DNA of 64,000 nt from Aggregatimonas sangjinii (GTDB taxonomy: Bacteria > Bacteroidota > Bacteroidia > Flavobacteriales > Flavobacteriaceae): positions 186,001 through 250,000 of the forward strand of contig NZ_CP040710.1 of NCBI RefSeq assembly GCF_005943945.1, written 5' to 3'. The notes below the pieces were generated by a model. It did not search any database. It was given only the letters and a program-made list of their open reading frames with translations, and was not told the DNA's origin. Shown here in pieces: positions 24,470-44,604 of the stretch. The translations under genes and the position numbers were made by a program. How positions within the stretch are numbered: the first letter of the stretch is position 1; each line of letters begins with the position of its first letter.

Positions 24470-25498
24470 CTATTTGATCAAGATGCTCTTGTAGCGTTCC
24501 AGATTTTTCAAAGCGATTCCGGTACCTCGAACAACAGCTCGTAAGGGGTCTTCGGCAATATATACAGGAAGGTCCGTTTTTTGTGAAAGTCTTCTATCCA
24601 AACCTCTTAGCATCGACCCTCCACCAGCTAAATAAATACCTGTATTGTAGATGTCAGCTGCAAGTTCTGGCGGTGTTTGCGATAAGGTCTCCATGACGGC
24701 ATCCTCTACGCGAAGAATCGATTTATCCAAGGCTTTTGCAATTTCCCGGTACGAAATCTGAACCTGTTTTGGTTTTCCTGTCAAGAGATCACGCCCTTGT
24801 ACCGATTTCTCTTCGGGTGGGTTTTGAAGGTCTTCCGTCGCCGATCCGATTTCGATTTTTATACTCTCCGCGGTCGCTTCTCCAACATAAAGGTTGTGTT
24901 GCGTACGCATGTAATAAATAATATCATTGGTAAAGACGTCGCCCGCAATCTTGACTGATTTATCGCATACGATTCCGCCCAAGGCGATCACCGCGATTTC
25001 AGTGGTACCACCCCCGATATCGACGATCATGTTTCCCTTGGGTTGCATAATATCAAGACCGATACCAATGGCCGCTGCCATTGGTTCGTGAATGAGATAC
25101 ACTTCCTTGCCGTTTACACGTTCGGCCGATTCCTTTACCGCCCGCATTTCGACCTCTGTAATTCCCGAAGGAATACAAATGACCATACGTAAAGCCGGTG
25201 GGAACCACTTTTTCTTTAAAGCGGGAATATTTTTGATGAACATATTGATCATCTTTTCAGATGCGTCAAAATCCGCAATAACCCCATCTTTCAAGGGTCT
25301 AATGGTCTTTATATTTTCATGGGTCTTACCCTGCATCATGTTGGCCTCTTTCCCGACCGCGATGATTTTTCCAGAAATACGATCTCTGGCTACGATAGAC
25401 GGACTATCGACCACAACTTTATCGTTGTGAATAATAAGGGTATTCGCCGTGCCTAAGTCAATGGCAATTTCCTCTGTCAAGAAATCAAAAAATCCCAT
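24470..25498 (-). CDS. mreB: Rod-shape-determining protein MreB (actin homologue)
   Basis: 342 aa, the usual length. Actin-fold ATPase that forms membrane-associated filaments and positions the elongation machinery. Seen: phosphate 1 motif IDLGTANT (13-20), phosphate 2 region MIVDIGGGTTEIA (about 157-169) and the adenosine motif YLAGGGSMLRGLD (about 289-301). It is preceded by a -7 box and about 90 nt of leader. It heads the mre cluster. Confidence 0.97.
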   Translation of the reverse strand: MGFFDFLTEEIAIDLGTANTLIIHNDKVVVDSPSIVARDRISGKIIAVGKEANMMQGKTHENIKTIRPLKDGVIADFDASEKMINMFIKNIPALKKKWFPPALRMVICIPSGITEVEMRAVKESAERVNGKEVYLIHEPMAAAIGIGLDIMQPKGNMIVDIGGGTTEIAVIALGGIVCDKSVKIAGDVFTNDIIYYMRTQHNLYVGEATAESIKIEIGSATEDLQNPPEEKSVQGRDLLTGKPKQVQISYREIAKALDKSILRVEDAVMETLSQTPPELAADIYNTGIYLAGGGSMLRGLDRRLSQKTDLPVYIAEDPLRAVVRGTGIALKNLERYKSILIK

Positions 25499-25591
25499 TT
25501 GTAATCTTCTTTGGTTATGTTACTAGTTAGAGTGGGGTTATACTAACGCAATCAAATGAAAAAAATTCTATGACCGGGTGTATTTCGTCGA

Positions 25592-25599
25592 CAAAAGTA
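25592..25599 (-). promoter_or_regulatory. -7 promoter element (TACTTTTG) of mreB
   Basis: Minus-strand TACTTTTG, a perfect TAnnTTTG, about 94 bp before the mreB ATG. It implies that mreB can be expressed separately from purH upstream. No good -33 box was found at the usual spacing. Confidence 0.5.
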
Positions 25600-25691
25600 G
25601 TAAAATATGCTGCTGTTTGGCTTTTTTACCATTGTAATTTTACAGGCCCAGAGCATGATGAAACACCTATATTTCGTTGATAAATGTGCCG

Positions 25692-27221
25692 TTAGTGCTT
25701 GAAATGACGCGTGCCGGTCATTACCATGGCGACTTCATTCTCGTTGCAGTAATCAATACTTAGTTGGTCTTTTATCGATCCTCCCGGCTGTATAACGCAT
25801 GAAATACCGTTTTTATGCGCGATTTCAACACAATCCGGAAAGGGAAAGAACGCATCGCTCGCCATCACCGCCCCGTTCAAATCAAAGTTGAAGGATTTTG
25901 CTTTGTGGATTGCCTGATTCAGGGCGTCTACTCGAGACGTTTGCCCCGTACCACTGGCACATAACTGCTTATTTTTCGCCAAGACTATGGTATTGCTTTT
26001 GGTATGCTTACACAGTTTTGAAGCAAAAATAAGATCCTCTACATCACTATCCGAGGGTTTTCTGTTCGTGGCATAGGTCAAATCGGCAATAGCGTCCGTT
26101 TTATGGTCTTTTTCTTGTAACAATATGCCGTTCAAACAAGTTCGGACGATCATCTCGGGCATGGCTACGTCATTTTGTACAAGGATGATTCGATTCTTCT
26201 TCCCTTTCAGGATTTCTAGGGCATCACTGGCATAGCTCGGAGCGATAACGACCTCACAGAATAGTTTATGAATCTCTTCTGCCGTTGCCTTATCGATTTC
26301 CTTGTTGCTGATCAATACTCCCCCGAAGGCCGATACGGGATCTCCGGCCAAGGCATCGACATACGCTTGATGTAGCGTATCGCGTTGTGCCAGTCCGCAA
26401 GCGTTATTGTGTTTCAGGATGGCAAAGGTAGGAGCGTCATTTTTGAATTCGAGCATCAGGTTTACGGCGGCGTCCACATCAAGTAGATTGTTGTAAGACA
26501 ACTCTTTACCATGAAGTTTGGAGAACATCGCATCGAAATCACCGAAGAAAAATCCTTTTTGATGCGGATTTTCCCCATACCGCAACACCTTACCGTTCGT
26601 CTCGCTCACCTTCAATGCCGCCAAATCGTGATTTTTGTTGAAGTAATTGAAAATGGCCGTATCGTAATGCGAGGATACGTTAAACGATTTTGCCGCAAAA
26701 CGCTTGCGATCTTCCAGCGTAGTGCTTCCATCTCCCTTGGATATCAAATCCAGAACCTCAGAATAGTCTTCCATGGAAGAAACACATAGGACATCCTTAA
26801 AATTCTTCGCCGCAGCGCGGATAAGGGAAATCCCGCCGATATCTATTTTTTCGATGATGTCCTGCTCGGAAGCCCCGCTTGCCACGGTCTTTTCGAAGGG
26901 GTACAGGTCTACGATGACGATATCCAATTGCGGAATCTCAAATTCGGCCAGCTGTGCCACATCACTTTCATTATCCTGTCGATTCAATATGCCCCCGAAA
27001 ACCTTGGGATGCAATGTTTTTACACGACCGCCCAAAATGGAAGGGTAGCTGGTCACGTCTTCCACCGGGATAACTTCAATGCCGAGGTCCTTAATGAATT
27101 TTTCAGTACCCCCTGTAGAATATATGGTGATACCCAATTCTTGAAACTTTCTTACGATGGCTTCCAACCCATCTTTGTGAAATACGGAAATAAGTGCTGA
27201 GGAAGCTTTTTTGGTGCTCAT
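25692..27221 (-). CDS. purH: Bifunctional AICAR transformylase / IMP cyclohydrolase
   Basis: 509 aa, normal length. It catalyses the last two steps of purine synthesis: formylation of AICAR to FAICAR and ring closure to IMP. The N-terminal MGS-like cyclohydrolase domain begins KASSALISVFHKDGL and includes YSTGGTEKFI (about 34-43) and GGRVKTLHPKVFGGIL (about 64-79). The AICAR transformylase domain follows, with YGENPHQKG (about 215-223) and LKHNNACG. It lies directly upstream of mreB on the same strand, an order common in this family. Confidence 0.97.
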   Translation of the reverse strand: MSTKKASSALISVFHKDGLEAIVRKFQELGITIYSTGGTEKFIKDLGIEVIPVEDVTSYPSILGGRVKTLHPKVFGGILNRQDNESDVAQLAEFEIPQLDIVIVDLYPFEKTVASGASEQDIIEKIDIGGISLIRAAAKNFKDVLCVSSMEDYSEVLDLISKGDGSTTLEDRKRFAAKSFNVSSHYDTAIFNYFNKNHDLAALKVSETNGKVLRYGENPHQKGFFFGDFDAMFSKLHGKELSYNNLLDVDAAVNLMLEFKNDAPTFAILKHNNACGLAQRDTLHQAYVDALAGDPVSAFGGVLISNKEIDKATAEEIHKLFCEVVIAPSYASDALEILKGKKNRIILVQNDVAMPEMIVRTCLNGILLQEKDHKTDAIADLTYATNRKPSDSDVEDLIFASKLCKHTKSNTIVLAKNKQLCASGTGQTSRVDALNQAIHKAKSFNFDLNGAVMASDAFFPFPDCVEIAHKNGISCVIQPGGSIKDQLSIDYCNENEVAMVMTGTRHFKH

Positions 27222-30149: not shown

Positions 30150-33100
30150 ATGCTCAACAAAGGCATTAAATTTCTAATAGAGAATAAATTGGTTGCGGTA
30201 TTAATCCTCCTTCTCTTTGTGGGGTGGGGTACCGTCAATGCACCCTTTAATTGGGATACCGGCATTCTACCAAGCGACCCTGTTGCGGTCGATGCCATTC
30301 CCGATATCGGCGAGAACCAGCAGATTGTCTTCACCAAATGGCCAGGACGTTCGCCTCAAGATATCGAAGACCAGATTTCCTATCCGTTGACCACATCGCT
30401 TTTGGGTATTCCGGGGGTCAAGACGATACGGAGTTCCTCGATGTTCGGGTTCTCCAGCATTTATATCATTTTTGAGGAGGATGTGGAATTCTATTGGAGC
30501 CGCAGCCGTATCCTTGAAAAATTGAATTCGCTTTCCAGTAATCTCTTGCCGGAAGGCGTGAATCCCGCACTGGGTCCGGATGCCACGGGATTGGGTCAAA
30601 TATTCTGGTACACCCTTGAAGGGAGGGACGAAGATGGAAATGTAACCGGCGGTTGGGACTTACAGGAGTTACGAAGCATTCAGGACTATTATGTAAAATA
30701 TGCTCTATCCGCAGCAAGCGGGGTTTCCGAAGTGTCCTCCATTGGGGGCTACGTACAGGAATATCAAATCGATGTGAATCCCGAATTGATGAAGCAGTAC
30801 ACTATCGGTCTTCATCAAGTGGTCAACGCCGTCAAGCAAAGTAATCGCGACATCGGGGCACAGACCTTGGAAATCAACCAAGCAGAATATTTGGTACGAG
30901 GTCTAGGTTATGTAAAGTCTTTGGATGATATCAAAAATGCCGTGGTCACTTCTGAGGATTTTACCTCGATTCGTGTGAAGGATATTGCCAATGTTTCCCT
31001 TGGTCCAGCGGTTCGTCGCGGAATTCTTGATAAGGAAGGTGCCGAGGTAGTTGGCGGGGTCGTGGTAGCCAGGTATGGAGCAAACCCCTTAGAGGTCATC
31101 AACAATGTCAAGGATAAAATCAAGGAGCTCAGCTCCGGACTCCCTTCCAAAGAATTAAGCGATGGCCGTACATCGCAATTGACCATTGTCCCTTTTTATG
31201 ACCGTACCGAACTCATTCAGGAAACCCTGGGAACGCTCAATGAAGCATTGACCTTGGAAATACTGATTACCATCTTGGTCATCATTATCATGGTATTCAA
31301 TCTCCGGGCCTCCGTGCTCATTTCAGGGCTTTTGCCCGTAGCCGTTTTAATGGTTTTCATCGCCATGAAGTTATTCGGGGTCGATGCCAATATCGTGGCC
31401 CTTTCGGGTATTGCCATCGCCATTGGTACGATGGTCGATGTCGGGGTCATCCTTTCCGAAAATATCATTCGGCATTTGGACGAGAACAAGGATAAGCTCC
31501 CCATAAATGAAGTAGTTTACAACGCTTCCGCTGAAGTCTCAGGTGCCATTTTAACAGCGGTAATGACCACCGTTATCAGTTTTATTCCCGTGTTCACGAT
31601 GATCGGTGCCGAAGGAAAATTATTCCGTCCGTTGGCGTTCACAAAGACCTTCGCGTTAACGGCTTCCATTATTGTTGCCCTGTTTTTAATTCCACCGTTT
31701 GCAGCTTTCCTCTTTAGAAAGAAGCGTAGCAAAAGTATAATGGGATACGTATTCAGCATACTACTCGTCGTTATCGGACTTATCGCGGTAGTGTACGGCT
31801 ATTGGTTAGGACTGGCGTTAATGGCATTCGGGACCATAAGACCTTTAAAGAACGCTGAAATTGCAGGGCGTTTGTTCAATGGGTTCTCGTTATCCGACAA
31901 ACAGGCCAGCCTTTTGAATATCCTAATTTCGGCAACGGCCATTGTATTCCTTTTGGCAACTTACTGGAGACCCTTGGGCTTGGACAGAAGTATTTTTATC
32001 AACCTGATTTTTGTAGGGTTCATATGCTTTGGATTGTTGGGCGTGTTCATCCTATTCAGAAAATACTATACGCGCATACTGCAATGGGCATTGCGGAATA
32101 AATTGGCCTTTCTCTCCATACCGACGGTCATTGTTGTTTTCGGGATACTGATTATGCAAAATACGGGCAAGGAGTTTATGCCTGCTCTTAACGAAGGTTC
32201 TTTTTTATTAATGCCAACCTCGCTTCCGCATGCGGGCGTCGAGGAGAACAAACGCGTATTACAACAGTTGGATATGGCAGTTGCCAGCATCCCGGAAATC
32301 GAAACGGTCGTGGGCAAGGCAGGACGCACGGAATCCGCATTGGATCCCGCGCCTATGTCGATGTACGAAAACATCATCCAGTACAAATCGGAGTACATGC
32401 AGAACGAGACCGGAAAGCGCCAACGCTTTAAAGTCAATGATGATGGTTTGTTTGCGTTGAGGGATGGTAATTTCCTTTTGAACCCGAATACAGTTCTCGA
32501 AGAGAACACTTCGGGGTATACCGAATCCGAAATCGAGAATTTCTCGGAAATCCGTTATGAAAATCTAATCCCTGATGACAGCGGCGAATACTACAGAAAC
32601 TGGCGGCCAGAAATACAATACCCAGATGACATTTGGAATGAAATCGTGCGTGTGACACGATTGCCCGGAGTGACATCCGCACCAAAGTTACAGCCCATCG
32701 AAACCCGGCTGGTCATGTTACAGACCGGTATGCGTGCGCCCATGGGCATCAAGGTAAAAGGCCAAGATCTACGAGAAATCGAGGCTTTTGGAATCCAGTT
32801 GGAGAATATTTTAAAGGAAGCGGAAGGTGTAAAAGACGAAGCCGTATTCGCCGATAGAATCGTGGGCAAACCGTATCTCCTTATCGATATTGATAGGGAG
32901 GCTTTGGCCAGATATGGCATTTTAGTCGAAGACGTACAACGGGTCTTGGAGGTTGCCGTTGGCGGGATGACCCTGACCCAGACCGTTGAGGGAAGGGAGC
33001 GTTACGGCGTGCGGGTACGTTACCCTAGGGAACTTCGCGAAAATCCGACGGATATAAAGAATATCTATGTCCCAGTGGCAAAAGGCAGTCCGATTCCTTT

Positions 33101-33950
33101 GAGCGAATTGGTCACGATTCGCTATGAAAAAGGGCCACAGGTCATCAAAAGTGAGGATACGTTTTTGGTCGGCTATGTCCTCTTTGATAAATTGGACGGT
33201 TTCGCGGAAGTGAACGTGGTGGAAAACGCCCAAGCCCTCATCCAAGAAAAAATCGCCAATGGCGAATTGGTCGTTCCCAAAGGCATCAATTATCAATTTA
33301 CGGGTACGTATGAAAATCAGCTACGAGCCGAAAAGACCTTATCGGTAGTAGTGCCTTTGGCCTTGTTCATCATCTTTTTAATCCTGTATTTCCAATTTCG
33401 TTCGGTATCTACTTCGTTGATGGTATTTACAGGAATTGCCGTAGCCTTTGCCGGGGGCTTCTTGATGATTTGGTGCTATGGCCAGGATTGGTTCCTCAAC
33501 TTCAATTTCTTCGGGGAGAACCTACGCGATTTGTTCCAAATGCATACCATCAACCTTAGCGTAGCGGTATGGGTAGGATTCATAGCACTCTTTGGTATCG
33601 CGACGGATGATGGCGTGGTCATGGCCACCTATCTCACACAGACTTTTGACCGGAACAAACCAAAGACTTTGGAAGCGGTCAGGGCATCGGTCGTTGAAGC
33701 AGGTGAAAAACGGATTCGTCCTTGTCTCATGACAACGGCCACAACGATTCTGGCATTGCTGCCCGTTTTGACCTCAACGGGAAGGGGAAGCGATATTATG
33801 ATCCCCATGGCCATTCCTTCTTTTGGGGGAATGTTGATTGCGCTGATTACCCTGTTGGTGGTTCCGGTGCTGTATAGTTGGAGGGCTGAGTATTCATTAG
33901 AAAAGAGAGAACGGAATATAGAGAATAGACTAAAAACCGAAGTACAATGA
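30150..33950 (+). CDS. cusA: CusA/CzcA-type heavy-metal RND efflux pump
   Basis: 1266 aa inner-membrane antiporter of the HME-RND family. With an adaptor and an outer-membrane channel it expels periplasmic metal ions. Seen: the porter domains, the TM4 region GIAIAIGTMVDVGVILSENI (about 420-440) with the proton-relay Asp/Glu, and the matching half with GIATDDGVVMATYL. It is about 200 residues longer than E. coli CusA. The extra length lies mainly at about 525-640, where three more hydrophobic stretches sit between the two repeat halves, and in the second periplasmic loop. Substrate is most likely Cu/Ag from the neighbours. The stop overlaps the tolC-like start (ATGA). Confidence 0.93.
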   Translation: MLNKGIKFLIENKLVAVLILLLFVGWGTVNAPFNWDTGILPSDPVAVDAIPDIGENQQIVFTKWPGRSPQDIEDQISYPLTTSLLGIPGVKTIRSSSMFGFSSIYIIFEEDVEFYWSRSRILEKLNSLSSNLLPEGVNPALGPDATGLGQIFWYTLEGRDEDGNVTGGWDLQELRSIQDYYVKYALSAASGVSEVSSIGGYVQEYQIDVNPELMKQYTIGLHQVVNAVKQSNRDIGAQTLEINQAEYLVRGLGYVKSLDDIKNAVVTSEDFTSIRVKDIANVSLGPAVRRGILDKEGAEVVGGVVVARYGANPLEVINNVKDKIKELSSGLPSKELSDGRTSQLTIVPFYDRTELIQETLGTLNEALTLEILITILVIIIMVFNLRASVLISGLLPVAVLMVFIAMKLFGVDANIVALSGIAIAIGTMVDVGVILSENIIRHLDENKDKLPINEVVYNASAEVSGAILTAVMTTVISFIPVFTMIGAEGKLFRPLAFTKTFALTASIIVALFLIPPFAAFLFRKKRSKSIMGYVFSILLVVIGLIAVVYGYWLGLALMAFGTIRPLKNAEIAGRLFNGFSLSDKQASLLNILISATAIVFLLATYWRPLGLDRSIFINLIFVGFICFGLLGVFILFRKYYTRILQWALRNKLAFLSIPTVIVVFGILIMQNTGKEFMPALNEGSFLLMPTSLPHAGVEENKRVLQQLDMAVASIPEIETVVGKAGRTESALDPAPMSMYENIIQYKSEYMQNETGKRQRFKVNDDGLFALRDGNFLLNPNTVLEENTSGYTESEIENFSEIRYENLIPDDSGEYYRNWRPEIQYPDDIWNEIVRVTRLPGVTSAPKLQPIETRLVMLQTGMRAPMGIKVKGQDLREIEAFGIQLENILKEAEGVKDEAVFADRIVGKPYLLIDIDREALARYGILVEDVQRVLEVAVGGMTLTQTVEGRERYGVRVRYPRELRENPTDIKNIYVPVAKGSPIPLSELVTIRYEKGPQVIKSEDTFLVGYVLFDKLDGFAEVNVVENAQALIQEKIANGELVVPKGINYQFTGTYENQLRAEKTLSVVVPLALFIIFLILYFQFRSVSTSLMVFTGIAVAFAGGFLMIWCYGQDWFLNFNFFGENLRDLFQMHTINLSVAVWVGFIALFGIATDDGVVMATYLTQTFDRNKPKTLEAVRASVVEAGEKRIRPCLMTTATTILALLPVLTSTGRGSDIMIPMAIPSFGGMLIALITLLVVPVLYSWRAEYSLEKRERNIENRLKTEVQ

Positions 33951-35191
33951 AATCAAAAAAGTCGAAACGAATGACAAAAGGAGTCTATATTCTCTTTTCA
34001 GTTTTCTCTTTTCTTTCAGCACAAAGTCAAGACTTGGAATCGTATATCCAAGAAGCGGAAACCAATAGTCCTGAGGTACAGGCATTTGAAATAAGCTACA
34101 ACATAGCCAAGGAAAAAGTGGAAGAGGCGAATGCATTGCCCAACACAGAGGTAAGCGCAGGAGTCTTCGTAAGTGAACCTGAAACCCGAACAGGGGCACA
34201 AAAGGCACGGTTTTCGGTCAAGCAGATGCTTCCTTGGTTCGGTACCATAACCGCTAGGGAAAACTACGCCAGTGCCGTGGCTGAGGTCGATTATTTGGAT
34301 GTAACGATTACAAAGAGGAAATTGCGGCTATCCGTTTCGCAATCCTACTATAAACTGTACGCTATCACGGAAAAGCAGAAAGTTCTCGACGAAAATATGC
34401 GATTGCTAAAAACCTATGAGCGCCTGGCATTGACCTCCGTGGAAGTGGGCAATGCCTCCGCGGTGGACGTATTGCGTTTGCAAATCCGTCAAAATGAACT
34501 GCAAGAGCAAAAGGAGGTACTGAGGCAGGAATACCTTTCGGAGCAAGGCGTTTTTAATAAGTTGCTGAACCGAAAGAAAACACTTGCCATCGACCTAATC
34601 GATAGCTTGACGATAGTCCCTGTGGTGGAACAAACCATCACCGAATTGGAACTGCATCCCGAACTCGAAAAGTACGACATGTTATACGAATCCGTAACAC
34701 GATCCGAACTATTGAACCAAAAGGAAGCGAATCCCAATTTAGGTTTCGGATTGGATTACATTCCCGTCGCAGAAAGGGCCGGAATGGATTTTAGCGATAA
34801 CGGCAAGGATATTTTGATGCCGATGGTATCGCTCTCCATTCCCATTTTCAACAACAAATACAAATCCCGTACGGTGCAAAATGAAATGCGTCAAGAGGAA
34901 ATCAATGCGCATAAATCGAATCGGAGAAATCTACTGCAGACTATTTTAAATACTTCCCTAAGCGATAAGGAAGCGGCCAGAATCAAATTCAATACACAAA
35001 TGAAGAATTTGAAACAGGCCAGGAACGCAGAGGAAATCCTGATTAAAAATTATGAAACGGGAACCATCGATTTTAACGACGTACTTGACATTCAAGAACT
35101 GCAATTGAAGTTTCAGATGAATCAAATTGAAGCCTTAAAAAACTATTATTCACAAATGGCTGTCATTAACTATTTAACGAATCAATACTGA
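33947..35191 (+). CDS. TolC/CusC-family outer-membrane efflux channel
   Basis: 414 aa with a signal peptide that ends ...FLSAQS-Q (about 27). Long alpha-helical hairpins rich in Glu, Gln and Lys (two OEP repeats) and short beta segments are typical of the trimeric outer-membrane channels. The start overlaps the cusA stop by 4 bp (ATGA), which indicates translational coupling and the same efflux complex. Another in-frame ATG at 33971 would give a shorter, less basic signal sequence. It has no lipobox Cys, unlike E. coli CusC. Confidence 0.9.
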   Translation: MKSKKSKRMTKGVYILFSVFSFLSAQSQDLESYIQEAETNSPEVQAFEISYNIAKEKVEEANALPNTEVSAGVFVSEPETRTGAQKARFSVKQMLPWFGTITARENYASAVAEVDYLDVTITKRKLRLSVSQSYYKLYAITEKQKVLDENMRLLKTYERLALTSVEVGNASAVDVLRLQIRQNELQEQKEVLRQEYLSEQGVFNKLLNRKKTLAIDLIDSLTIVPVVEQTITELELHPELEKYDMLYESVTRSELLNQKEANPNLGFGLDYIPVAERAGMDFSDNGKDILMPMVSLSIPIFNNKYKSRTVQNEMRQEEINAHKSNRRNLLQTILNTSLSDKEAARIKFNTQMKNLKQARNAEEILIKNYETGTIDFNDVLDIQELQLKFQMNQIEALKNYYSQMAVINYLTNQY

Positions 35192-35282: not shown

Positions 35283-35849
35283 ATGAAAATCAGTAAAACA
35301 AACATGATGAATCGAAACAAGATATTAGTGGTAAGTGCTGCGGTGACTATGACTTTCGTATCCTGTGGAGAACAAAAAAACAAAAAAGATGCAGAGATCA
35401 GCACCCCACAGGCAGTAGAACAATCGAAGATTGAAACTGCGGATATCGCGGACGCTTCTTTCTCTGATGAAATGACCGGAAAGGTATTCCGTAAGTACCA
35501 ACAATTACGAGTGGCCTTGGTCAATTCCGATGCCGACGAAGTACAAACGGTTGCGGGAAATCTTGCGGAAAGTTTTTCGCAAGAACGGGAAGATATGAAA
35601 ACAATGGCTTTGGCCATGGCAGAAGCGGCGGATATTGAAAAACAGCGCGAACTCTTTTCGGAATTCACGGAAAAGGTCGAACCTATATTGAAGGAGTCCA
35701 TCTCCGAAGGAACGATTTACAAACAATTTTGCCCCATGGCTTTTGATGGTAAGGGCGGCTATTGGATCTCCGATGTAGATGAGATTCGCAATCCGTATTA
35801 CGGCGATAAAATGCTCAAATGCGGTAAGGTAGTCGAAGAGATACAGTAA
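35283..35849 (+). CDS. DUF3347 lipoprotein, periplasmic metal-island protein
   Basis: 188 aa. Signal peptide with lipobox FVSC (Cys28), then a linker and a DUF3347 domain (about 58-188). The helical part is followed by the conserved C-terminal motif FCPMAF (about 149-154) and YYGDKMLKCGKV (about 172-183), where Cys and Met could hold a soft metal. In other Bacteroidetes this domain occurs alone or fused to CusB-type adaptors, so a metal-shuttle role for the pump is likely. Other in-frame ATGs at about 35304 and 35307 are possible starts. Confidence 0.85.
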   Translation: MKISKTNMMNRNKILVVSAAVTMTFVSCGEQKNKKDAEISTPQAVEQSKIETADIADASFSDEMTGKVFRKYQQLRVALVNSDADEVQTVAGNLAESFSQEREDMKTMALAMAEAADIEKQRELFSEFTEKVEPILKESISEGTIYKQFCPMAFDGKGGYWISDVDEIRNPYYGDKMLKCGKVVEEIQ

Positions 35850-35929: not shown

Positions 35930-37156
35930 ATGAATGATTTTCTAAAACAATGGGGAGAAGCGGCCTATACGACTACCGGATTCTTCTGGATGGCGCTTTG
36001 GGCTTTCATATTGGGTTACATTATCAGTAGTATGATCCAGATATTTGTCACCGAAAAAAGAATGCAGAAAGCAATGGGCGATAATGAAGGGAAGAGTGTT
36101 CTACTCGGCACCTTCTTTGGCTTTATAAGCAGTTCGTGCAGCTTTGCGGCGCTGGCTTCGACCAAATCAATTTTTAAAAAGGGTGCGAGCTTCGTTTCGT
36201 CTATAGCCTTTTTGCTAGCATCTACCAATTTGGTGATTGAGCTCGGAATCCTTATTTCCATATTCTTAGGATGGCAGTTTGTGGTAGGGGAATATGCCGG
36301 GGGTATTCTTTTGATAGGAATTAGTTGGGTTCTCATTCGGATTATCAACCCTAAGAAACTGATTGAGAATGCCCGAAAAAATCTGGAAGGTCAGGAGAAT
36401 GATGAAATGGATGATGCTAAAAATTGGAAAAAACAGATTCAGCAAGAAAACAGTTGGGCACGCGTCGCAAAAAAATATAAAATGGAATGGCAGATGGTCT
36501 GGAAAGATGTTACCGTAGGCTTTACCATTGCGGGAATCGTGGCTGCTTTCGTTCCCGATTCTTTTTTTGAGACGCTATTTATAAATAGCGGTCAAGGTAA
36601 TACTGATTTTACATTTCTCGAAATTCTCGAACACATAGTAGTGGGGCCGGTCGCCGCATTTTTGACCTTTATCGGTTCTATGGGAAATATTCCGTTAGCT
36701 GCGCTTCTTTTTGGAAAAGGCGTAAGTTTTGCTGGGGTAATGGCCTTTATTTTTAGCGATTTGGTTGTTTTTCCCGTATTGCGTATCAATGCAAAGTACT
36801 ACGGATGGAAGATGTCGTTCTTCATCCTATTTCTATTATTTACGGCTCTCGTTGGTACGGCCCTTGCCCTGCATTATTCGTTTGATCTGCTCGGTATTCT
36901 GCCAGACCCGTCACGGGTAAAGATTCAGGATAGTGAATTTTTTAAGATCGATTATACCTTCTATTTAAATATTGCCTTTTTAGCAATCTCAGCCTATCTG
37001 ATTTATCTGGGCTTTTTCAAGAAGAAGGATATCGAGCATTCCATGAGCGAGATGGCACCAAAAAGCCCGTTGTTGGAAAGTATTTTAAAGTATGCAGCCT
37101 TCATCTGCTATTTATGGCTTGCTGGTGGACTGATTGTGAAATTCTTAATTCAATGA
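35930..37156 (+). CDS. YraQ/UPF0718-family permease
   Basis: 408 aa, about 8-10 TM helices. The family signature lies near residue 63-100: SSSCSFAALAS, FKKGASF and AFLLASTNLVIE, repeated in weaker form in the second half (VGPVAAFLTFIGSMGNIPLA). UPF0718 permeases include arsenical exporters of the ArsP type, but the ion moved is unknown for most members. Its place between metal-efflux genes suggests export of a metal or metal complex. Its last codons overlap the start of the next gene (ATGA). Confidence 0.88.
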   Translation: MNDFLKQWGEAAYTTTGFFWMALWAFILGYIISSMIQIFVTEKRMQKAMGDNEGKSVLLGTFFGFISSSCSFAALASTKSIFKKGASFVSSIAFLLASTNLVIELGILISIFLGWQFVVGEYAGGILLIGISWVLIRIINPKKLIENARKNLEGQENDEMDDAKNWKKQIQQENSWARVAKKYKMEWQMVWKDVTVGFTIAGIVAAFVPDSFFETLFINSGQGNTDFTFLEILEHIVVGPVAAFLTFIGSMGNIPLAALLFGKGVSFAGVMAFIFSDLVVFPVLRINAKYYGWKMSFFILFLLFTALVGTALALHYSFDLLGILPDPSRVKIQDSEFFKIDYTFYLNIAFLAISAYLIYLGFFKKKDIEHSMSEMAPKSPLLESILKYAAFICYLWLAGGLIVKFLIQ

Positions 37157-37869
37157 CAATGAAGAAAATACGCTCCATAGTTCTCGCAGGTCTGATAGTA
37201 GCAGGTTGTACTATTGCCCCTAAAACTCAGAATGTTAAATTCTCAGGGGCGCTACGCACAATGATGTCGGGTAATTTAGAGGCAACAATCTCTTTGGATT
37301 CGCTTTCTCGAAAGTCGCATTTGTACGCCTTGGGCGCTTTTGAAAATCTCAAAGGCGAAATTCAGATTTTCGATGGTGAGGCTTTCAATACCTCGGTAGA
37401 TTCCAACGAAGTTAGTTTTGACAGGAGTTTTAATGAGAAGGCAGCATTACTCGTTTATGCCGAAGTTACAAGTTGGCAAAGCAAAGCAATTCCAACGGAA
37501 ATAAATACGCTAAACGAACTGGAAGAATTTATTGAAAAACGAGCAAAGCAATCAGGTTTGAGTATGGAAAAGCCATTCCCGTTTTTAATCACTGGAAAGG
37601 TTGATTCACTGCAATGGCATGTTATCGACTGGGTTGAAGGCGATACGCTTCATACGCATCAAAAACATCAGGAATCGGGTTTAAACGGCACCTTGAAGGA
37701 TAGGGATATTGAGATAATTGGCTTTTTCTCTAAATCGCACAAGGCTGTTTTTACCCATCATACCAGATTTGTTCATATGCACTTCAAGGATAAGTATGAA
37801 GAAATAGCTGGTCATGTAGATGAACTACGCTTAGGCTCGAACATGGAATTGAAATTGCCTAAAATCTAA
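37153..37869 (+). CDS. Acetolactate-decarboxylase-fold lipoprotein in the metal island
   Basis: 236-238 aa; starts at the ATG at 37153 (overlaps the permease stop) or 37159. The longer reading from 37114 is out of keeping with the signal peptide. From 37159: lipobox IVAGC (Cys17), then a domain like alpha-acetolactate decarboxylase (BudA, PF03306): YALGAFENLKGEIQIFDG (56-73), LNELEEFIEKR, PFLITGKVDSL and HMHF...AGHVDEL. His206, His208 and His219 have the same 2/11 spacing as the zinc ligands His194/196/207 of the Brevibacillus enzyme. The catalytic Arg region reads LQWHVID, so Arg appears lost. Many extra His (HTHQKH, SHKAVFTHH). It may be a metal-binding protein and not an enzyme. Confidence 0.72.
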   Translation: MTMKKIRSIVLAGLIVAGCTIAPKTQNVKFSGALRTMMSGNLEATISLDSLSRKSHLYALGAFENLKGEIQIFDGEAFNTSVDSNEVSFDRSFNEKAALLVYAEVTSWQSKAIPTEINTLNELEEFIEKRAKQSGLSMEKPFPFLITGKVDSLQWHVIDWVEGDTLHTHQKHQESGLNGTLKDRDIEIIGFFSKSHKAVFTHHTRFVHMHFKDKYEEIAGHVDELRLGSNMELKLPKI

Positions 37870-37872
37870 AAG

Positions 37873-40401
37873 ATGAAGCACACCTATCACATACACGGAA
37901 TGACCTGCAATGGATGCCGAACGCATGTCGAGAAAACACTTTCCAAAGTTGAAGGGGTAACCAAAGCATCCGTCAATTTAGAAAAAGCCGAGGCGACCAT
38001 TGAGATGGAGAATCACATTCCCATTGAAAATTTTCAAGAGGCTTTGAAAAAAGATGGCGGTTCGTACTCCATCCATAAACCGGGCGAGCAGCCCCACCTA
38101 ACCTTCCCAAAGGATGGGAATAAAACACAAGAAAGGAAAGCCCCCTATGGGGGATTAGGGGGCGGTACTTTCTACTGCCCGATGCATTGCGAGGGCGATA
38201 AGACCTATGATAAACCGGGCGATTGCCCTGTCTGCGGAATGGATTTGGTAGAAGAACAAAACCTATCTGCAACGACCTCTGAACAATGGACGTGCCCAAT
38301 GCACCCAGAGATTATAAGGGATGAACCGGGAAGCTGTCCCATTTGCGGAATGGATTTAGTGCCAATGAAACCCAACCTTTCCGCAGAGGAGAAGACCTTA
38401 AAGAAACTGCTCAAAAAGTTTTGGATAGCTGTCGCGTTCACCCTGCCCATCTTTCTGATTGCGATGTCCGAAATGTTGTCCAATAATCCACTTTATGACC
38501 TCATGGAGCAGAAAAACTGGAATTGGATTCAGTTCGCGCTTTCCATTCCAGTAGTGTTCTATGCCACTTGGATGTTCTTTGAACGTGCCTACCGAAGCAT
38601 CAAAACATGGAACCTGAACATGTTTACATTAATCGGTTTCGGTGCAGGGGTAGCATGGCTTTTCAGTGTTTTCGGGATGTTCTTCCCCGATTTCTTTCCG
38701 GCCCAATTCAAATCGGAATCGGGTAGCGTTCATGTCTACTTTGAAGCGGCAACGGTTATCTTAACCCTAGTGCTTTTAGGTCAAGTTTTGGAAGCACGGG
38801 CGCATAGTAAGACCAATTCCGCGGTAAAGGAATTGTTGAAACTTGCCCCGAATAAGGCCATCAAGGTTGTTGATGGCGAAGAACAAGAAGTGGCTATCGA
38901 CAAAATCGAACTGGGAGATGTGCTTCGCGTAAAGCCAGGCGATAAAATTCCTGTGGATGGTGTGTTGACTGAAGGACATACTTCAATTGATGAATCGATG
39001 ATAACGGGCGAACCCATTCCCATAGATAAATTCGAAGGGGATAAGGTCAGCAGTGGTACCATCAATGGCAACCAATCCTTTCTGATGAAGGCCGAGAAAA
39101 TAGGTTCGGATACGTTGTTGTCGCAAATCATCCATATGGTCAACGACGCTAGCCGCAGCCGTGCGCCAATCCAAAAACTGGCCGATACGGTTTCAGGGTA
39201 TTTTGTGCCAATAGTGGTCATCATAGCGATCATCACTTACGGGGTTTGGGCTATTTGGGGACCCGAACCTACCTATGTGTATGCCCTGGTCAATGCTATT
39301 GCCGTGTTGATAATCGCCTGTCCCTGTGCCTTGGGATTGGCTACGCCGATGTCCGTCATGGTCGGTGTGGGGAAGGGTGCACAGAACGGGGTGCTCATCA
39401 AAAATGCGGAAGCCCTTGAAAAAATGGACAAGGTAGATACATTGATCGTGGACAAGACCGGGACGATTACCGAGGGAAAACCGACGGCCGAAAAAGTGGG
39501 TTCATTTGCTAACGATTTCACTGATAGTAAAGTGCTGCAATATATCATTTCGCTCAACAGTCAAAGCGAACATCCTTTAGCGGAAGCAACAGTAAAGTAC
39601 GGTAAGGAACAAAAAGCGGAATTCCTAAAGGCCGAAAGGTTTAATGCCGTTACCGGAAAGGGTGTCGAAGGAACCGTCAACGAAAAGAAAGTGGCTCTGG
39701 GTAACGCCAAGATGATGGAACAGGTCAACGCAACTGTTTCCGAGGCGATGGAAGATGAAGCCCAATCGTATCAAAAGCAGGGTAAGACCGTTTCGTATCT
39801 CGCCATTGACGGGAGTACCGTCGGCTTTATTGTGATAGGGGATAAAATCAAGGAAACCAGTAAGAAGGCCATCAAAGCTTTACAGGACAAAGGTATCGAA
39901 GTCATCATGCTGACAGGGGATAATCACGACACCGCACAGGCTGTGGCCAGCGAACTCGATCTAGCCGATTTTAAGGCGGGAATGCTTCCAGAGGATAAAT
40001 TGAAAGAAGTCGAAAAACTTCAAAAAAATGGAAGAACGGTCGCGATGGCGGGGGACGGCATCAATGATGCCCCGGCGCTAGCCAAAAGTGATGTGGGGAT
40101 TGCAATGGGTACCGGAACCGATGTCGCCATTGAAAGCGCTTCCATGACTTTGGTAAAAGGTGATTTGCACGGTATTGTAAAGGCCCGGAACCTGAGCAAT
40201 AAAGTGATGCGGAATATCAAGCAAAACCTTTTCTTTGCGCTTGTTTACAATGTTCTAGGTGTACCGATTGCGGCGGGTGTGCTGTACCCGTTTTTTGGAG
40301 TATTGCTTTCTCCAATGATAGCAGCGGCTGCCATGAGCTTTAGTTCTGTCTCTGTTATAGCAAATGCATTAAGGCTACGAACGGCAAGAATTAATTTATG
40401 A
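37873..40401 (+). CDS. copA: CopA-type copper/silver P1B-ATPase with HMA and two HMBD modules
   Basis: 842 aa. In order: an N-terminal HMA domain (1-68, CNGC with Cys12/Cys15), a low-complexity linker with a palindromic element (about 89-99), two heavy-metal-binding modules of the form CPMH...PGxCPxCGMDL (about 101-125 and 140-164), then the ATPase. The transport site CPC is Cys483-Pro-Cys485, the phosphorylated residue is Asp527 (DKTGT), and the P-domain has TGDN and GDGINDAPAL. It exports Cu(I)/Ag(I) from the cytoplasm to the periplasm. It starts 3 bp after the preceding lipoprotein gene. The CPC motif rules against a Zn/Cd type (also CPC) less strongly than the context does. Confidence 0.93.
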   Translation: MKHTYHIHGMTCNGCRTHVEKTLSKVEGVTKASVNLEKAEATIEMENHIPIENFQEALKKDGGSYSIHKPGEQPHLTFPKDGNKTQERKAPYGGLGGGTFYCPMHCEGDKTYDKPGDCPVCGMDLVEEQNLSATTSEQWTCPMHPEIIRDEPGSCPICGMDLVPMKPNLSAEEKTLKKLLKKFWIAVAFTLPIFLIAMSEMLSNNPLYDLMEQKNWNWIQFALSIPVVFYATWMFFERAYRSIKTWNLNMFTLIGFGAGVAWLFSVFGMFFPDFFPAQFKSESGSVHVYFEAATVILTLVLLGQVLEARAHSKTNSAVKELLKLAPNKAIKVVDGEEQEVAIDKIELGDVLRVKPGDKIPVDGVLTEGHTSIDESMITGEPIPIDKFEGDKVSSGTINGNQSFLMKAEKIGSDTLLSQIIHMVNDASRSRAPIQKLADTVSGYFVPIVVIIAIITYGVWAIWGPEPTYVYALVNAIAVLIIACPCALGLATPMSVMVGVGKGAQNGVLIKNAEALEKMDKVDTLIVDKTGTITEGKPTAEKVGSFANDFTDSKVLQYIISLNSQSEHPLAEATVKYGKEQKAEFLKAERFNAVTGKGVEGTVNEKKVALGNAKMMEQVNATVSEAMEDEAQSYQKQGKTVSYLAIDGSTVGFIVIGDKIKETSKKAIKALQDKGIEVIMLTGDNHDTAQAVASELDLADFKAGMLPEDKLKEVEKLQKNGRTVAMAGDGINDAPALAKSDVGIAMGTGTDVAIESASMTLVKGDLHGIVKARNLSNKVMRNIKQNLFFALVYNVLGVPIAAGVLYPFFGVLLSPMIAAAAMSFSSVSVIANALRLRTARINL
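38140..38163. repeat. GC-rich palindromic element inside copA
   Basis: Perfect inverted repeat GCCCCCTA (38140-38147) / TAGGGGGC (38156-38163) around the octamer TGGGGGAT. It is read in frame as KAPYGGLGGGT between the HMA domain and the first HMBD module. This G/C-block pattern resembles short palindromic repeats usually found between genes of Flavobacteriia. Confidence 0.7.
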
Positions 40402-40467: not shown

Positions 40468-41763
40468 ATGAAAAAAAATAGTATTTACATCGGATTGGCC
40501 GTTTTAGTGGGGCTTTTGGCCGGATATTTGATTTTCGGAAATAGTTCTGATGAAATAACAGCCGAAGAACATCATCATAGTCAGGAAACGGCAGCAACGC
40601 AAATGTGGACATGCTCTATGGATCCCCAAGTGATGCAGCCCGAACCGGGGGATTGTCCCATTTGTGGTATGGATTTAATTCCCGCGGAGTCGGATAGTGA
40701 AGGTCTGTCAATAGGTGAGTTCAAAATGACCAAAAACGCCATGGCACTGGCCGGTATTCAGACCATTAAAGTTGGCTCCGGCGGTTCCGGCGACAATACC
40801 TTAAAACTTTCGGGAACGATAGAAGAGAACGAAAAAGCGGTGGCCACCCAAGCCTCTTATTTTGATGGTCGTATCGAAAAACTTTTTGTCAACTTTAAGG
40901 GCGAAGAGGTCAGGAACGGACAACAATTGGCGACCATTTACTCCCCAGAACTGGTTTCGGCCCAACAGGAACTAATCACTGCCGCAAGTTTAAAAGAATC
41001 ACAACCATCTTTATACAAAGCAGTGCGCAACAAACTGAAGTTATGGAAACTCTCCGAAAAACAAATCGAAAATATTGAAAGGTCTGGTCAAGTTCAGGAG
41101 AATTTTCCGGTTTATGCGAATGTCTCCGGTACGGTTTCCGAAATCATGGTCGAGGCCGGGGATTATGTAAAAAAGGGTTCGGCCTTGTTTAAAATCGCTG
41201 ATTTGGGTACCGTTTGGGCGGTCTTCGACGCTTATGAAAATCAGGTTTCACAATTAAGAGAAGGACAGCAAATCGAAATCATTACCAAATCGTATCCCGA
41301 TAAAAAATTCGATGCGAAGATTTCCTTTATAGACCCTGTGTTGAATTCATCCACAAGAACCATTGAAGTTAGGGCGGTATTACAGAATGCCAAAGGGCTA
41401 TTTAAACCCGGAATGTTCGTGGCAGGAACGCTGGAATTGTCCGCCGACAAAAAAGAGGATATGATTATAATCCCGGAAAGTGCGGTACTTTGGACAGGCG
41501 AACGCTCCGTGGTATACCTGAAAACCAGCGCCGAGGACAGGACTTTCGAAATGCGGGAAGTTATGGTCGGCGATATCGTGAATGGTGGATACCAAGTCTT
41601 ATCCGGTTTGCAGATTGGGGATGAAATTGTAACGAATGGAACGTTCACCATAGACGCCGCAGCACAACTAAAAGGGAAAAAATCGATGATGAACGAAGAT
41701 GGCGAAAAGGCGATGACCGGGCATGAGGGGCATCAAAGTATGCAGGATGACAAAATTGAGTAA
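40468..41763 (+). CDS. cusB: CusB-type RND periplasmic adaptor with a heavy-metal-binding module
   Basis: 431 aa membrane-fusion protein. An N-terminal TM anchor or signal (about 6-24) and a His-rich patch (EEHHHSQE, 33-40) are followed by an HMBD module (about 47-72: TCSMDPQ...CPICGMDLIP), then lipoyl/barrel-sandwich, hairpin and beta-barrel domains (about 95-410). It joins the CusA pump to the outer-membrane channel and passes on metal. Its gene is separated from cusA and the channel gene by four genes, an unusual order. The HMBD matches the two in CopA. Confidence 0.92.
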   Translation: MKKNSIYIGLAVLVGLLAGYLIFGNSSDEITAEEHHHSQETAATQMWTCSMDPQVMQPEPGDCPICGMDLIPAESDSEGLSIGEFKMTKNAMALAGIQTIKVGSGGSGDNTLKLSGTIEENEKAVATQASYFDGRIEKLFVNFKGEEVRNGQQLATIYSPELVSAQQELITAASLKESQPSLYKAVRNKLKLWKLSEKQIENIERSGQVQENFPVYANVSGTVSEIMVEAGDYVKKGSALFKIADLGTVWAVFDAYENQVSQLREGQQIEIITKSYPDKKFDAKISFIDPVLNSSTRTIEVRAVLQNAKGLFKPGMFVAGTLELSADKKEDMIIIPESAVLWTGERSVVYLKTSAEDRTFEMREVMVGDIVNGGYQVLSGLQIGDEIVTNGTFTIDAAAQLKGKKSMMNEDGEKAMTGHEGHQSMQDDKIE

Positions 41764-41839
41764 CGGGTGTACTACTAGAACCGGAATATCCCGACGCTCA
41801 AGGGTGTCATATCAGGGTGTTATAGTTTATTTGAGAACA

Positions 41840-44137
41840 ATGGATAAATTTAAATTGGCGGTATTATTCTTCGTTTTTCAAACGGCTTGCTTCGCGCAAG
41901 ACAAAATTGATGGGGTGGTTTTAGAAATGACCGCGGCTAACAAAGAAGTTGCGTTGCAGGGAGCCAATGTCTATTGGTTGAACTCCCAAATAGGCACGAT
42001 TACCAATGGCAAAGGCGAGTTTAATATTGCTTTTTCCGACGAGTACAACAAGTTGGTCATCAGTTATGTAGGTTTTGAAACCGATACCTTGACCATTACA
42101 TCGCCCGGTACCATTACCCACATCCTACGACCGTCGAGCGAATTGGACGAGGTCGTGGTGGAAAAAAAGCGCGATGCCGTGCAAAAATCGTTCGCCAGTA
42201 CCCAAAACGTAATTACAGTAAACAGCGCCGAATTGCTAAAGGCGGCCTGTTGTAACCTGTCGGAGAGTTTTGAGACCAATCCGGCTATAGATGTGAACTT
42301 TTCGGATGCCTTAACGGGCACCAAGCAGATCCAGATGTTGGGCCTTACCAGTCCGTATCTGTTGATTACCCAAGAGAACATTCCCATGGTGCGGGGCGCC
42401 TCACAGGCATACGGACTCACATTTACCCCAGGTACTTGGGTAGAGAGCATTCAGATTACCAAGGGTGCGGGTAGCGTAGTGAATGGCTATGAAAGTATTT
42501 CGGGGCAGATCAATACCGAGCTGGTGAAGCCTTTTACGGATGAACTTTTATTTGTAAACGCTTACGGGAATGTTAATGGTCGCCTCGAGTTGAATACGCA
42601 CATCAATACAAAACTGTCGGATAAAATAGGTACGGGAATATACATCCATGGAAATCTCAGGAATAAAAAGGAAGAGAACAACGGCGATGGTTTTTTGGAT
42701 GCCCCTGTGGCCGATCAAATCAATATCATGAACCGATGGCAATACCAGAATGCCGAAAAGGGGTGGGTTAGTTTTTTGAATCTACGGTATTTGAACGATG
42801 AAAAGCAGACCGGGGAAATCGATTTTGATCCGGATGCCTGGATTCGACTTCGTTCGGCCAACGAATCGGGCAGTTTAGACGATAGTACATATCGTACCCA
42901 GAGCGAAGCCTTAGGGTGGGGTAGCGAAATCAATACCCAGCGCTTTGACGCTTCTTTAAAGTTGGGGTATGTATTTCCGGAGCTTCCCTTTCAGAGTTTC
43001 GGATTCCAAACCTCGTATAGTGACCATCGGCAGGATTCCTACTATGGCTTCAATCGATACGATATCGACCATAAAAGTGTATTCTCCAACCTTTTGTTCA
43101 ATTCGATCATCGGCGATACGCGGAACAAGTTCACCACTGGGCTCACCTATGCCTATGACCGTTATAACGAGTTGGTGAACACTGGCAATTTTTCTAGGCA
43201 GGATGTATCCGCAGGTGCGTTCTTTGAGTATAGCTATGAGAATTTGGAGAAATTGAGTTTAACGGCCGGCCTCCGTATCGATAGCCACAATCGCTTGGGT
43301 ACCTACCTCACCCCGCGTCTTCACATGCGGTATACTCCTTGGGATCGTGGGAGTTTGCGTGCCTCTTTTGGAAGAGGAAGGCGGGCGGCCAATATTTTTG
43401 CCGAAAACCAACAACTGTTCGCATCGGCAAGGGCAATCCAAATTTTGGATACCGAAGGTAGTATTTATGGCCTAGACCCCGAAGATGCATGGAATTATGG
43501 TGTCAGCTTTCTGCAAGGCTTCACTTTTTTAAATCGGCCTGGGAACATTACATTGGACTATTATAAAACAGATTTTAAGAACCAGGTAGTGGTCGATTGG
43601 GAGAATCCGAACGCGGTGTTTTTTTATAATTTGGACGGAAAAAGTGTTGCCAATAGTTTTCAGGTAGAGGTAAATCATGAAATCCTGAATAGTTTAGAGC
43701 TACGAACAGCTTATAAATATTACGATGTCAATACCGACTATAGGAACGGCAATTTGCAAAAACCGCTGCAAGCGCAGCACCGCTTTTTTGTGAATTTGGG
43801 CTATGAGACGCAAGCAAAAGAGAATGGAGCCCAATGGAAATTCGATTATACCTTGCATACCCTTGGGGAGCAACGTTTGCCGAATACCGACGTAAACCCG
43901 CCGGAATTTCGACTGGGTGAATTCGCCCAAGGATATAGTTTGATGAACGCACAGGTCACCAAGGTGTTTTCAAAAGCAATGGAAGTCTATGTCGGAGGCG
44001 AGAATTTGACTAATTTTAAACAACAAAATCCCGTATTGGGAGCAGAGGACCCTTTTGGCGCAAATTTTGATACCAGCATCGTGTACGCTCCTATAATGGG
44101 AAGAATGTTTTATGCGGGGTTTCGATATAAATTGTGA
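41840..44137 (+). CDS. TonB-dependent receptor of the metal island
   Basis: 765 aa from the ATG at 41840 (the upstream extension to 41723 overlaps cusB and lacks a signal peptide). Signal peptide to Ala19 (CFA-Q), a carboxypeptidase-like regulatory domain (about 22-105), a plug domain (about 110-235) and a 22-strand barrel that ends in a Phe/aromatic C-terminus (FYAGFRYKL). The plug begins with a vicinal Cys pair, KAACCNLSESFE (Cys137, Cys138), that could hold a soft metal. There is no SusD partner, so this is not a glycan system; a copper- or metal-related substrate is likely from context. Confidence 0.9.
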   Translation: MDKFKLAVLFFVFQTACFAQDKIDGVVLEMTAANKEVALQGANVYWLNSQIGTITNGKGEFNIAFSDEYNKLVISYVGFETDTLTITSPGTITHILRPSSELDEVVVEKKRDAVQKSFASTQNVITVNSAELLKAACCNLSESFETNPAIDVNFSDALTGTKQIQMLGLTSPYLLITQENIPMVRGASQAYGLTFTPGTWVESIQITKGAGSVVNGYESISGQINTELVKPFTDELLFVNAYGNVNGRLELNTHINTKLSDKIGTGIYIHGNLRNKKEENNGDGFLDAPVADQINIMNRWQYQNAEKGWVSFLNLRYLNDEKQTGEIDFDPDAWIRLRSANESGSLDDSTYRTQSEALGWGSEINTQRFDASLKLGYVFPELPFQSFGFQTSYSDHRQDSYYGFNRYDIDHKSVFSNLLFNSIIGDTRNKFTTGLTYAYDRYNELVNTGNFSRQDVSAGAFFEYSYENLEKLSLTAGLRIDSHNRLGTYLTPRLHMRYTPWDRGSLRASFGRGRRAANIFAENQQLFASARAIQILDTEGSIYGLDPEDAWNYGVSFLQGFTFLNRPGNITLDYYKTDFKNQVVVDWENPNAVFFYNLDGKSVANSFQVEVNHEILNSLELRTAYKYYDVNTDYRNGNLQKPLQAQHRFFVNLGYETQAKENGAQWKFDYTLHTLGEQRLPNTDVNPPEFRLGEFAQGYSLMNAQVTKVFSKAMEVYVGGENLTNFKQQNPVLGAEDPFGANFDTSIVYAPIMGRMFYAGFRYKL

Positions 44138-44247
44138 TAAGAGAAGAACAAAAAGAGAAAAGAGAAAAGAATAGAGAGTAGAACACGGGCGTGTCGACTA
44201 TTCTATTCTGTTCCCTCAATTATACAAAGTGTATTAAATCAAAAATC

Positions 44248-44604
44248 ATGAAGAAGCTATTTTTAGTACTTGTATTGGCATTGACTACCACCTTGGCGTT
44301 TGCCCAGGATAAGAACAAGAAAATGACCATGGAGGTCGACGGCAAATGCGATATGTGCAAAGCACGCATTGAAAAGGCGGCGCTTGGGGTAAAAGGGGTA
44401 AAGTATGCGTATTGGGATATTCCCACCCATCAATTATCATTGATATTGGACGAGCGCAAGACCGACCCGATGCAGGTGAAAACCGCCTTGGTCGCTGTTG
44501 GCCATGACACGAAAGAATTGAAGGCCACCGAGGAAGCCTACAATGCCGTACACCCCTGTTGTAAATATCGGGACGATGCCACCGACGATAGCGAAAAGCA
44601 TTAA
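44248..44604 (+). CDS. Secreted heavy-metal-associated (HMA) protein
   Basis: 118 aa from the ATG at 44248; the longer reading from 44191 lacks a signal peptide. Signal peptide to about residue 19 (LAFA-Q), one HMA ferredoxin-like domain with the metal motif CDMC (Cys34, Cys37), and a C-terminal HPCCKYR with a second Cys pair (104-105). It is probably a periplasmic copper-binding protein that works with the CopA/Cus system. It is the last gene of the island and is followed by a strong hairpin. Confidence 0.88.
   Translation: MKKLFLVLVLALTTTLAFAQDKNKKMTMEVDGKCDMCKARIEKAALGVKGVKYAYWDIPTHQLSLILDERKTDPMQVKTALVAVGHDTKELKATEEAYNAVHPCCKYRDDATDDSEKH

Follow-up and report, generated by a model that had tools for sequence, protein, structure and literature searches.

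The window analysed here, a 64,000-nucleotide stretch of Aggregatimonas sangjinii DNA, contains a gene for a lipoprotein with the predicted fold of acetolactate decarboxylase (ALDC), and the linkage of its subfamily to copper-export genes beyond chance is well supported. The product is probably an unrecognised copper-handling protein of marine Bacteroidota rather than the enzyme named in databases. In its specific form, our reading is that of a periplasmic lipoprotein, with putative copper binding, which reuses the ALDC fold and its 3-His/Glu pocket as an accessory of copper export; we hold this tentatively, as falling just short of evenly balanced.

The gene and its copper island

The ORF begins with the ATG at 37153, its stop codon ends at 37869 and it encodes 238 aa. 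Residue numbers given here count from this ATG; those of the first-pass annotation counted from a second ATG in frame (37159) and are 2 lower. The gene, which a genome-wide search found to be the sole PF03306 gene of its genome, and the island around it are made up as follows:

30150..33950 (+): CusA-type metal RND pump (TIGR00914 above cut-off, 795 bits for the joined pieces)
33947..35191 (+): TolC-type outer-membrane channel (PF02321)
35283..35849 (+): DUF3347 protein, recurring in these copper loci (PF11827)
35930..37156 (+): PF03773 (ArsP_1) permease, between the DUF3347 gene and the ALDC-like gene (Pfam match)
37153..37156 (+): ATGA overlap of the ALDC-like gene's start codon with the stop of the upstream permease gene (from the sequence)
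37153..37869 (+): ORF of the predicted ALDC-fold lipoprotein, 238 aa, P0001 (PF03306, AlphaFold2 model, Foldseek matches 1xv2/4bt2/5xne)
37159..37161 (+): second ATG in frame (from the sequence), source of the earlier numbering
37873..40401 (+): CopA, Cu(I) P-type ATPase with HMA and two HMBD domains (domain matches)
40468..41763 (+): CusB-type periplasmic adaptor with HMBD (domain matches)
41723..44137 (+): the island's TonB-dependent receptor, adjacent to copA also in related loci (domain match)
44191..44604 (+): small HMA-like protein, last gene of the island (PF00403, 24.1 bits, just below the cut-off of 24.8)

As the first-pass annotation had described, the gene overlaps the permease gene and copA starts 3 bp past its stop codon; the ATGA overlap may couple the translation of the two genes. 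No PF03773 permease was seen beside the ALDC-like gene in the copper-linked relatives surveyed, and it is not a conserved neighbour.

The island lies near mreB and purH (AICARFT; window 24470-27221), as in several other Flavobacteriaceae, which suggests a conserved chromosomal site for the copper island. Within copA, an in-frame insert, CCCCCTATGGGGGATTAGGGGG, GC-rich and palindrome-like, stands in the linker between HMA and HMBD (window 38140-38165) and is absent from aligned relatives. A dispersed repeat was considered for this insert and ruled out, as it occurs as a single copy in the genome.

Predicted fold, export signal and metal site

The window protein matches PF03306 with E = 7e-13 (48.8 bits; gathering cut-off 25) and fails the curated ALDC equivalog TIGR01252 (29 bits; cut-off 180.65). 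An AlphaFold2 model built from an alignment of 61 homologues has a mean pLDDT of 92.3 and a pTM of 0.86, and includes an N-terminal helix. When this model was compared with the PDB by Foldseek, ranks 1-14 were all ALDC chains, with probability 1.00 for all ALDC structures found and 1xv2 as the best match (E 9.5e-14, TM 0.74-0.75); the next match, human PTD012 (1xcr), was weaker (TM 0.47-0.59). On this model the protein is predicted to have the three-dimensional fold of ALDC. The motif order of ALDC had been read earlier from the letters, with a structure mismatching PF03306 named beforehand as refuting; the predicted model matches the ALDC structures.

Characterised ALDCs (BudA/AlsD, PF03306, TIGR01252; 4bt2-4bt7, 5xne, 5yho, 6inb, 6j92, 1xv2) share with the window protein the fold, the 3-His triad with its 2/11 spacing and the equivalent of Glu65, whereas the window protein is 14-17% identical to them, has His in place of Arg145, lacks the C-terminal tail, is a lipoprotein far under the equivalog cut-off, and lies in a copper locus. 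PTD012/C11orf54 (PF08925) has a related zinc-containing fold with three His, but is a eukaryotic sugar-metabolism enzyme, identified in PMC12435205 as a zinc 3-dehydro-L-gulonate decarboxylase.

The relatives of the window protein could be divided into three sets: group A, its own subfamily (44-67% identity to it); group B, a sister group of A (~30% identity), from Flavobacteriaceae and others; and group C, high-scoring PF03306 proteins, which in Flavobacteriaceae are lipoproteins too. Close pairs are under purifying selection, with dN/dS values mostly of 0.13-0.29 and of 0.6-0.7 in three short-distance pairs. The following residues were compared, the ALDC equivalents (Glu65, Arg145, His194, His196 and His207) having been obtained by counting along the 4bt2 chain:

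37198..37209 (+): lipobox VAG-Cys19 (sequence; Cys conserved in the family)
37357..37359 (+): Glu69, equivalent of the ALDC catalytic Glu65 (4bt2 alignment)
37618..37620 (+): His156, at the place of ALDC Arg145 (ungapped 4bt2 correspondence)
37651..37668 (+): HxHxKH motif with His167, His169 and His172, specific to group A (family alignment)
37738..37761 (+): His196 and Thr201-His202-His203, common to groups A and B only (family alignment)
37774..37815 (+): putative metal-site triad His208, His210 and His221, ALDC His194/196/207 (4bt2 and family alignments)
37819..37821 (+): Asp223, invariant in groups A and B and placed two residues past the last His of the triad (family alignment)

The lipobox proposed earlier (VAGC) is well preserved: none of the 42 non-redundant group A sequences departs from Cys19, nor do the aligned sequences of groups B and C. 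An export signal, either lipobox or signal peptide, occurs in all three groups compared; most A and B members have the lipobox, and in some members from outside Flavobacteriaceae a plain signal peptide takes its place. Hence the earlier phrase "cytoplasmic fermentation enzyme fold" undersold the wide occurrence of exported PF03306 proteins in Bacteroidota. In lipoproteins of this phylum an acidic motif after the Cys is the signal for surface export; since no such signal was evident after Cys19 in the N termini examined, the lipoprotein is assumed to face inward, to the periplasm.

The three His noted earlier as His206, His208 and His219 correspond to His208, His210 and His221, and their 2/11 spacing is as described. 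Together with Glu69, whose conservation answers the earlier call to inspect the Glu65 equivalent, they show no variation across groups A, B and C save for single exceptions. The loss of the catalytic Arg, earlier called apparent, was found throughout the subfamily. Arg145 of 4bt2_A stands 8 residues past Gly137, and His156 stands 8 past the homologous Gly148; His occupies this place in all 42 sequences of group A and all 17 of group B. The protein ends at LPKI, at the end of the last strand and well short of the tail of 4bt2, and thus lacks the C-terminal tail. Both Arg145 and this tail, which brings a Glu to the active site, matter for ALDC catalysis.

An ordinary acetolactate decarboxylase on display in the envelope, which the name derived from PF03306 would imply, is therefore very improbable. 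An ALDC of Bacillus brevis is known as an exoenzyme, and the fold, the three His and the Glu are as in ALDC, but the equivalog score lies far below its cut-off, each member of group A has His where ALDC has Arg, the tail is absent, no acetolactate synthase gene was recognised nearby, and the context is one of copper.

In group C of Flavobacteriaceae (L002-L013), 10 of 12 proteins also have no equivalent of Arg145, with Gly or Ala instead. At least one of these, L005, passes TIGR01252 (200.7 vs 180.65 bits), so that this cut-off is no guarantee of the Arg.

The window protein has 11 His, 10 of which are invariant or nearly so among the 42 non-redundant group A sequences, in keeping with the many additional His reported at first. 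The HxHxKH motif (His167 in 42/42, His169 in 41/42 and His172 in 42/42) is absent from groups B and C. A 36-sequence alignment of group A has 43 invariant columns, including W155, H156, W160, H167, H172, H196, T201, H202, H210, H221 and D223. Glu69, Lys67, Gln71, Trp155 and Trp160, also invariant, look like an enzyme active site. The exported lipoproteins of group B (L014-L031 type, Flavobacteriaceae) resemble the window protein in the Arg-to-His replacement, His196, THH, Asp223 and the lipobox, but do not have HxHxKH.

Three further relatives are worth noting: 1) A SASA carbohydrate acetylesterase of the sialic-acid type (PF03629) is fused to a group B PF03306 domain (L147:6072-7595, minus strand). 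2) A PF03306 domain is fused to FmdE (PF02663), with a second PF03306 gene following in tandem (L150:5984-8016, minus strand). 3) A homologue of 28% identity on a plasmid of Acinetobacter sp. LoGeW2-3 (L132:7977-8729), annotated as acetolactate decarboxylase, adjoins an ammonium transporter and a cluster resembling glnT/glutamate synthase, with no copper genes nearby. Spread of the family on plasmids was considered and set aside, as only three distant homologues were present in the plasmid collection.

Linkage to copper-export genes

Among 59 group A loci, which were fetched by similarity (a choice that could be biased) and include a few near-identical copies, well over half have a CusA, CusB or CopA homologue within 5 kb. 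The usual order is cusA-tolC-(DUF3347)-ALDC-like gene-copA or HMA gene-cusB. In copper-linked loci the gap between the gene and its neighbour is usually at most 4 bp, and often there is a 4-bp overlap.

A less biased test used 300 sampled Flavobacteriaceae genomes, searched with the window protein and the window CusA. They contained 17 group A genes (45-100% identity), all 17 in copper loci and 13 within ~4 kb of a CusA. The remaining four (G090, G101, G294 and G199) lie in DUF3347/HMA/TonB-receptor loci. A full CopA is present in three of these loci, and these three, like the window, have homologues of purH (AICARFT) and mreB close by, recognised in L166-L168 from N-terminal sequences rather than by family scan. 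Group B differs in that CusA, CusB, CopA or multicopper oxidase was found within 5 kb in none of the 14 loci read, L148 (below) being the one relative near copper genes; among the CusA places listed, none comes within 5 kb of any group B gene, the nearest being ~10 kb away (G099). The contrast (13/17 vs 0/38) gives p about 2e-9 in a Fisher test confined to the CusA places listed and taking related genomes as independent. The window genome has two CusA/CzcA-type pumps and one Cu-ATPase over cut-off, so the background is ~1% of the genome within 5 kb of one. About 200 genomes have a close CusA, and the gene stands beside CusA in only 13; it is thus an accessory component.

Copper linkage was also found in other Bacteroidota. 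One locus (L142) has a CusA(61%)/ALDC-like/TolC/CusB arrangement, and in a Saprospiraceae genome (L064) the gene is next to CusB. Two Hymenobacter plasmids have islands in which the ALDC-like gene follows TolC and adaptor genes and which also encode RND, HMBD, DUF305 and four-helix copper proteins; homology of the Hymenobacter protein was detected by hhalign (probability 97.8%, E 1.3e-12), and only this homology and the context are used, as its tree row has a very long branch and an untrusted position. The cluster in L148 includes a copper-resistance multicopper oxidase, and in it a group B-type gene is followed after ~10 bp by a Cu-ATPase gene. In L138 the gene comes after an RND/adaptor pair and has a cupredoxin, SCO1/SenC and a protein with a Cu-oxidase domain in its vicinity. 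In a 78-row tree, the copper label changes at least five times, three of these changes being forced by well-supported branches; this is a quick tree with several long branches, in which the copper label of L154 was assigned by hand and L138 carries no label.

These placements bear on whether the gene is a passenger on a mobile copper island, with no role in copper handling. The islands are common to several genera almost intact (L053-L057) and the gene occurs in a minority of CusA loci only, as expected of a passenger. Against this stand the several separate placements in copper loci of differing build, the tight coupling to neighbours together with purifying selection, and the presence of every Flavobacteriaceae copy in a copper locus, which make a passenger unlikely to a high degree.

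The Saprospirales-type part of group A had no copper neighbours at the loci read and retains the conserved His. All group A relatives of Saprospirales and Flavobacteriales without copper neighbours keep the same His, D223 and Trp; these residues were therefore not acquired for copper export, and the idea that the extra His arose together with copper linkage was rejected. The Hymenobacter copper-island homologues retain the metal triad along with the Glu and the Asp, and have lost His156, the THH motif and the extra His, which suggests that copper loci need the core site rather than the extra His. The first-pass proposal of an exported metal binder in a copper island stands as to fold, 3-His site, lost Arg, envelope location and copper-locus link, but metal binding as the function is not established, given that non-copper relatives keep the extra His and that residues resembling an active site are invariant.

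Possible roles of the lipoprotein

In the copper-export reading, the ALDC fold and its 3-His/Glu metal pocket would have been reused in a periplasm-facing lipoprotein of CusCBA/CopA loci. His156 and further conserved His would widen this pocket, which would hold copper or another late transition metal, and the metal so held may either be buffered after delivery by CopA or be handed to the CusB/CusA pump; acetoin production would not be the role. Such a protein would resemble the periplasmic copper accessory proteins CusF, the NosL-type lipoproteins and the DUF3347 proteins, which are likewise exported, small and encoded in or near copper-export loci. A plausible role as copper ligand is common to all, in the window protein a putative one read from its sequence. 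These proteins have another fold and Met/Cys sites, whereas the window protein is His-rich.

Alternatively, the protein may be a redesigned periplasmic metal-dependent enzyme (a lyase, hydrolase or decarboxylase acting on another substrate), in which His156 would serve as acid/base and a small molecule would be made or removed under copper stress. We consider this a serious possibility, if one that more probably fails than holds. Glu69 and the three His are kept almost without exception in all three groups and also in Hymenobacter, many invariant residues are not His, the same residues are retained by non-copper relatives, such characterised relatives with this fold as were found, PTD012/C11orf54 included, are enzymes, and related domains occur in fusions with SASA esterase and FmdE. 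However, the Arg and the C-terminal tail are lost, no metabolic neighbour is common to the loci examined (none conserved was found for group B or for non-copper group A genes), and the genes that recur beside it encode copper exporters and copper proteins, not the enzymes of one pathway.

Extended beyond the window, the copper-export reading would define a class of decarboxylase-fold copper-handling lipoproteins, in which the change of Arg to His would have made a His-rich copper site out of the zinc pocket, for use in RND and P-type ATPase copper export across Bacteroidota; this wider claim is possible but somewhat doubtful. A full-text search of open-licence papers returned no link between ALDC-like proteins and copper export, and the copper paper on Bizionia argentinensis does not mention acetolactate.

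The window protein combines an already known fold with a putative new role. Since one homologue, on the Acinetobacter plasmid, is annotated as acetolactate decarboxylase, such genes can be misread as fermentation genes. A defined subfamily of PF03306 is tied to copper export and copper proteins, and its replacement of Arg145 by His offers a concrete, testable swap. If the copper-handling role is true, the copper systems of marine Bacteroidota would have an extra component.
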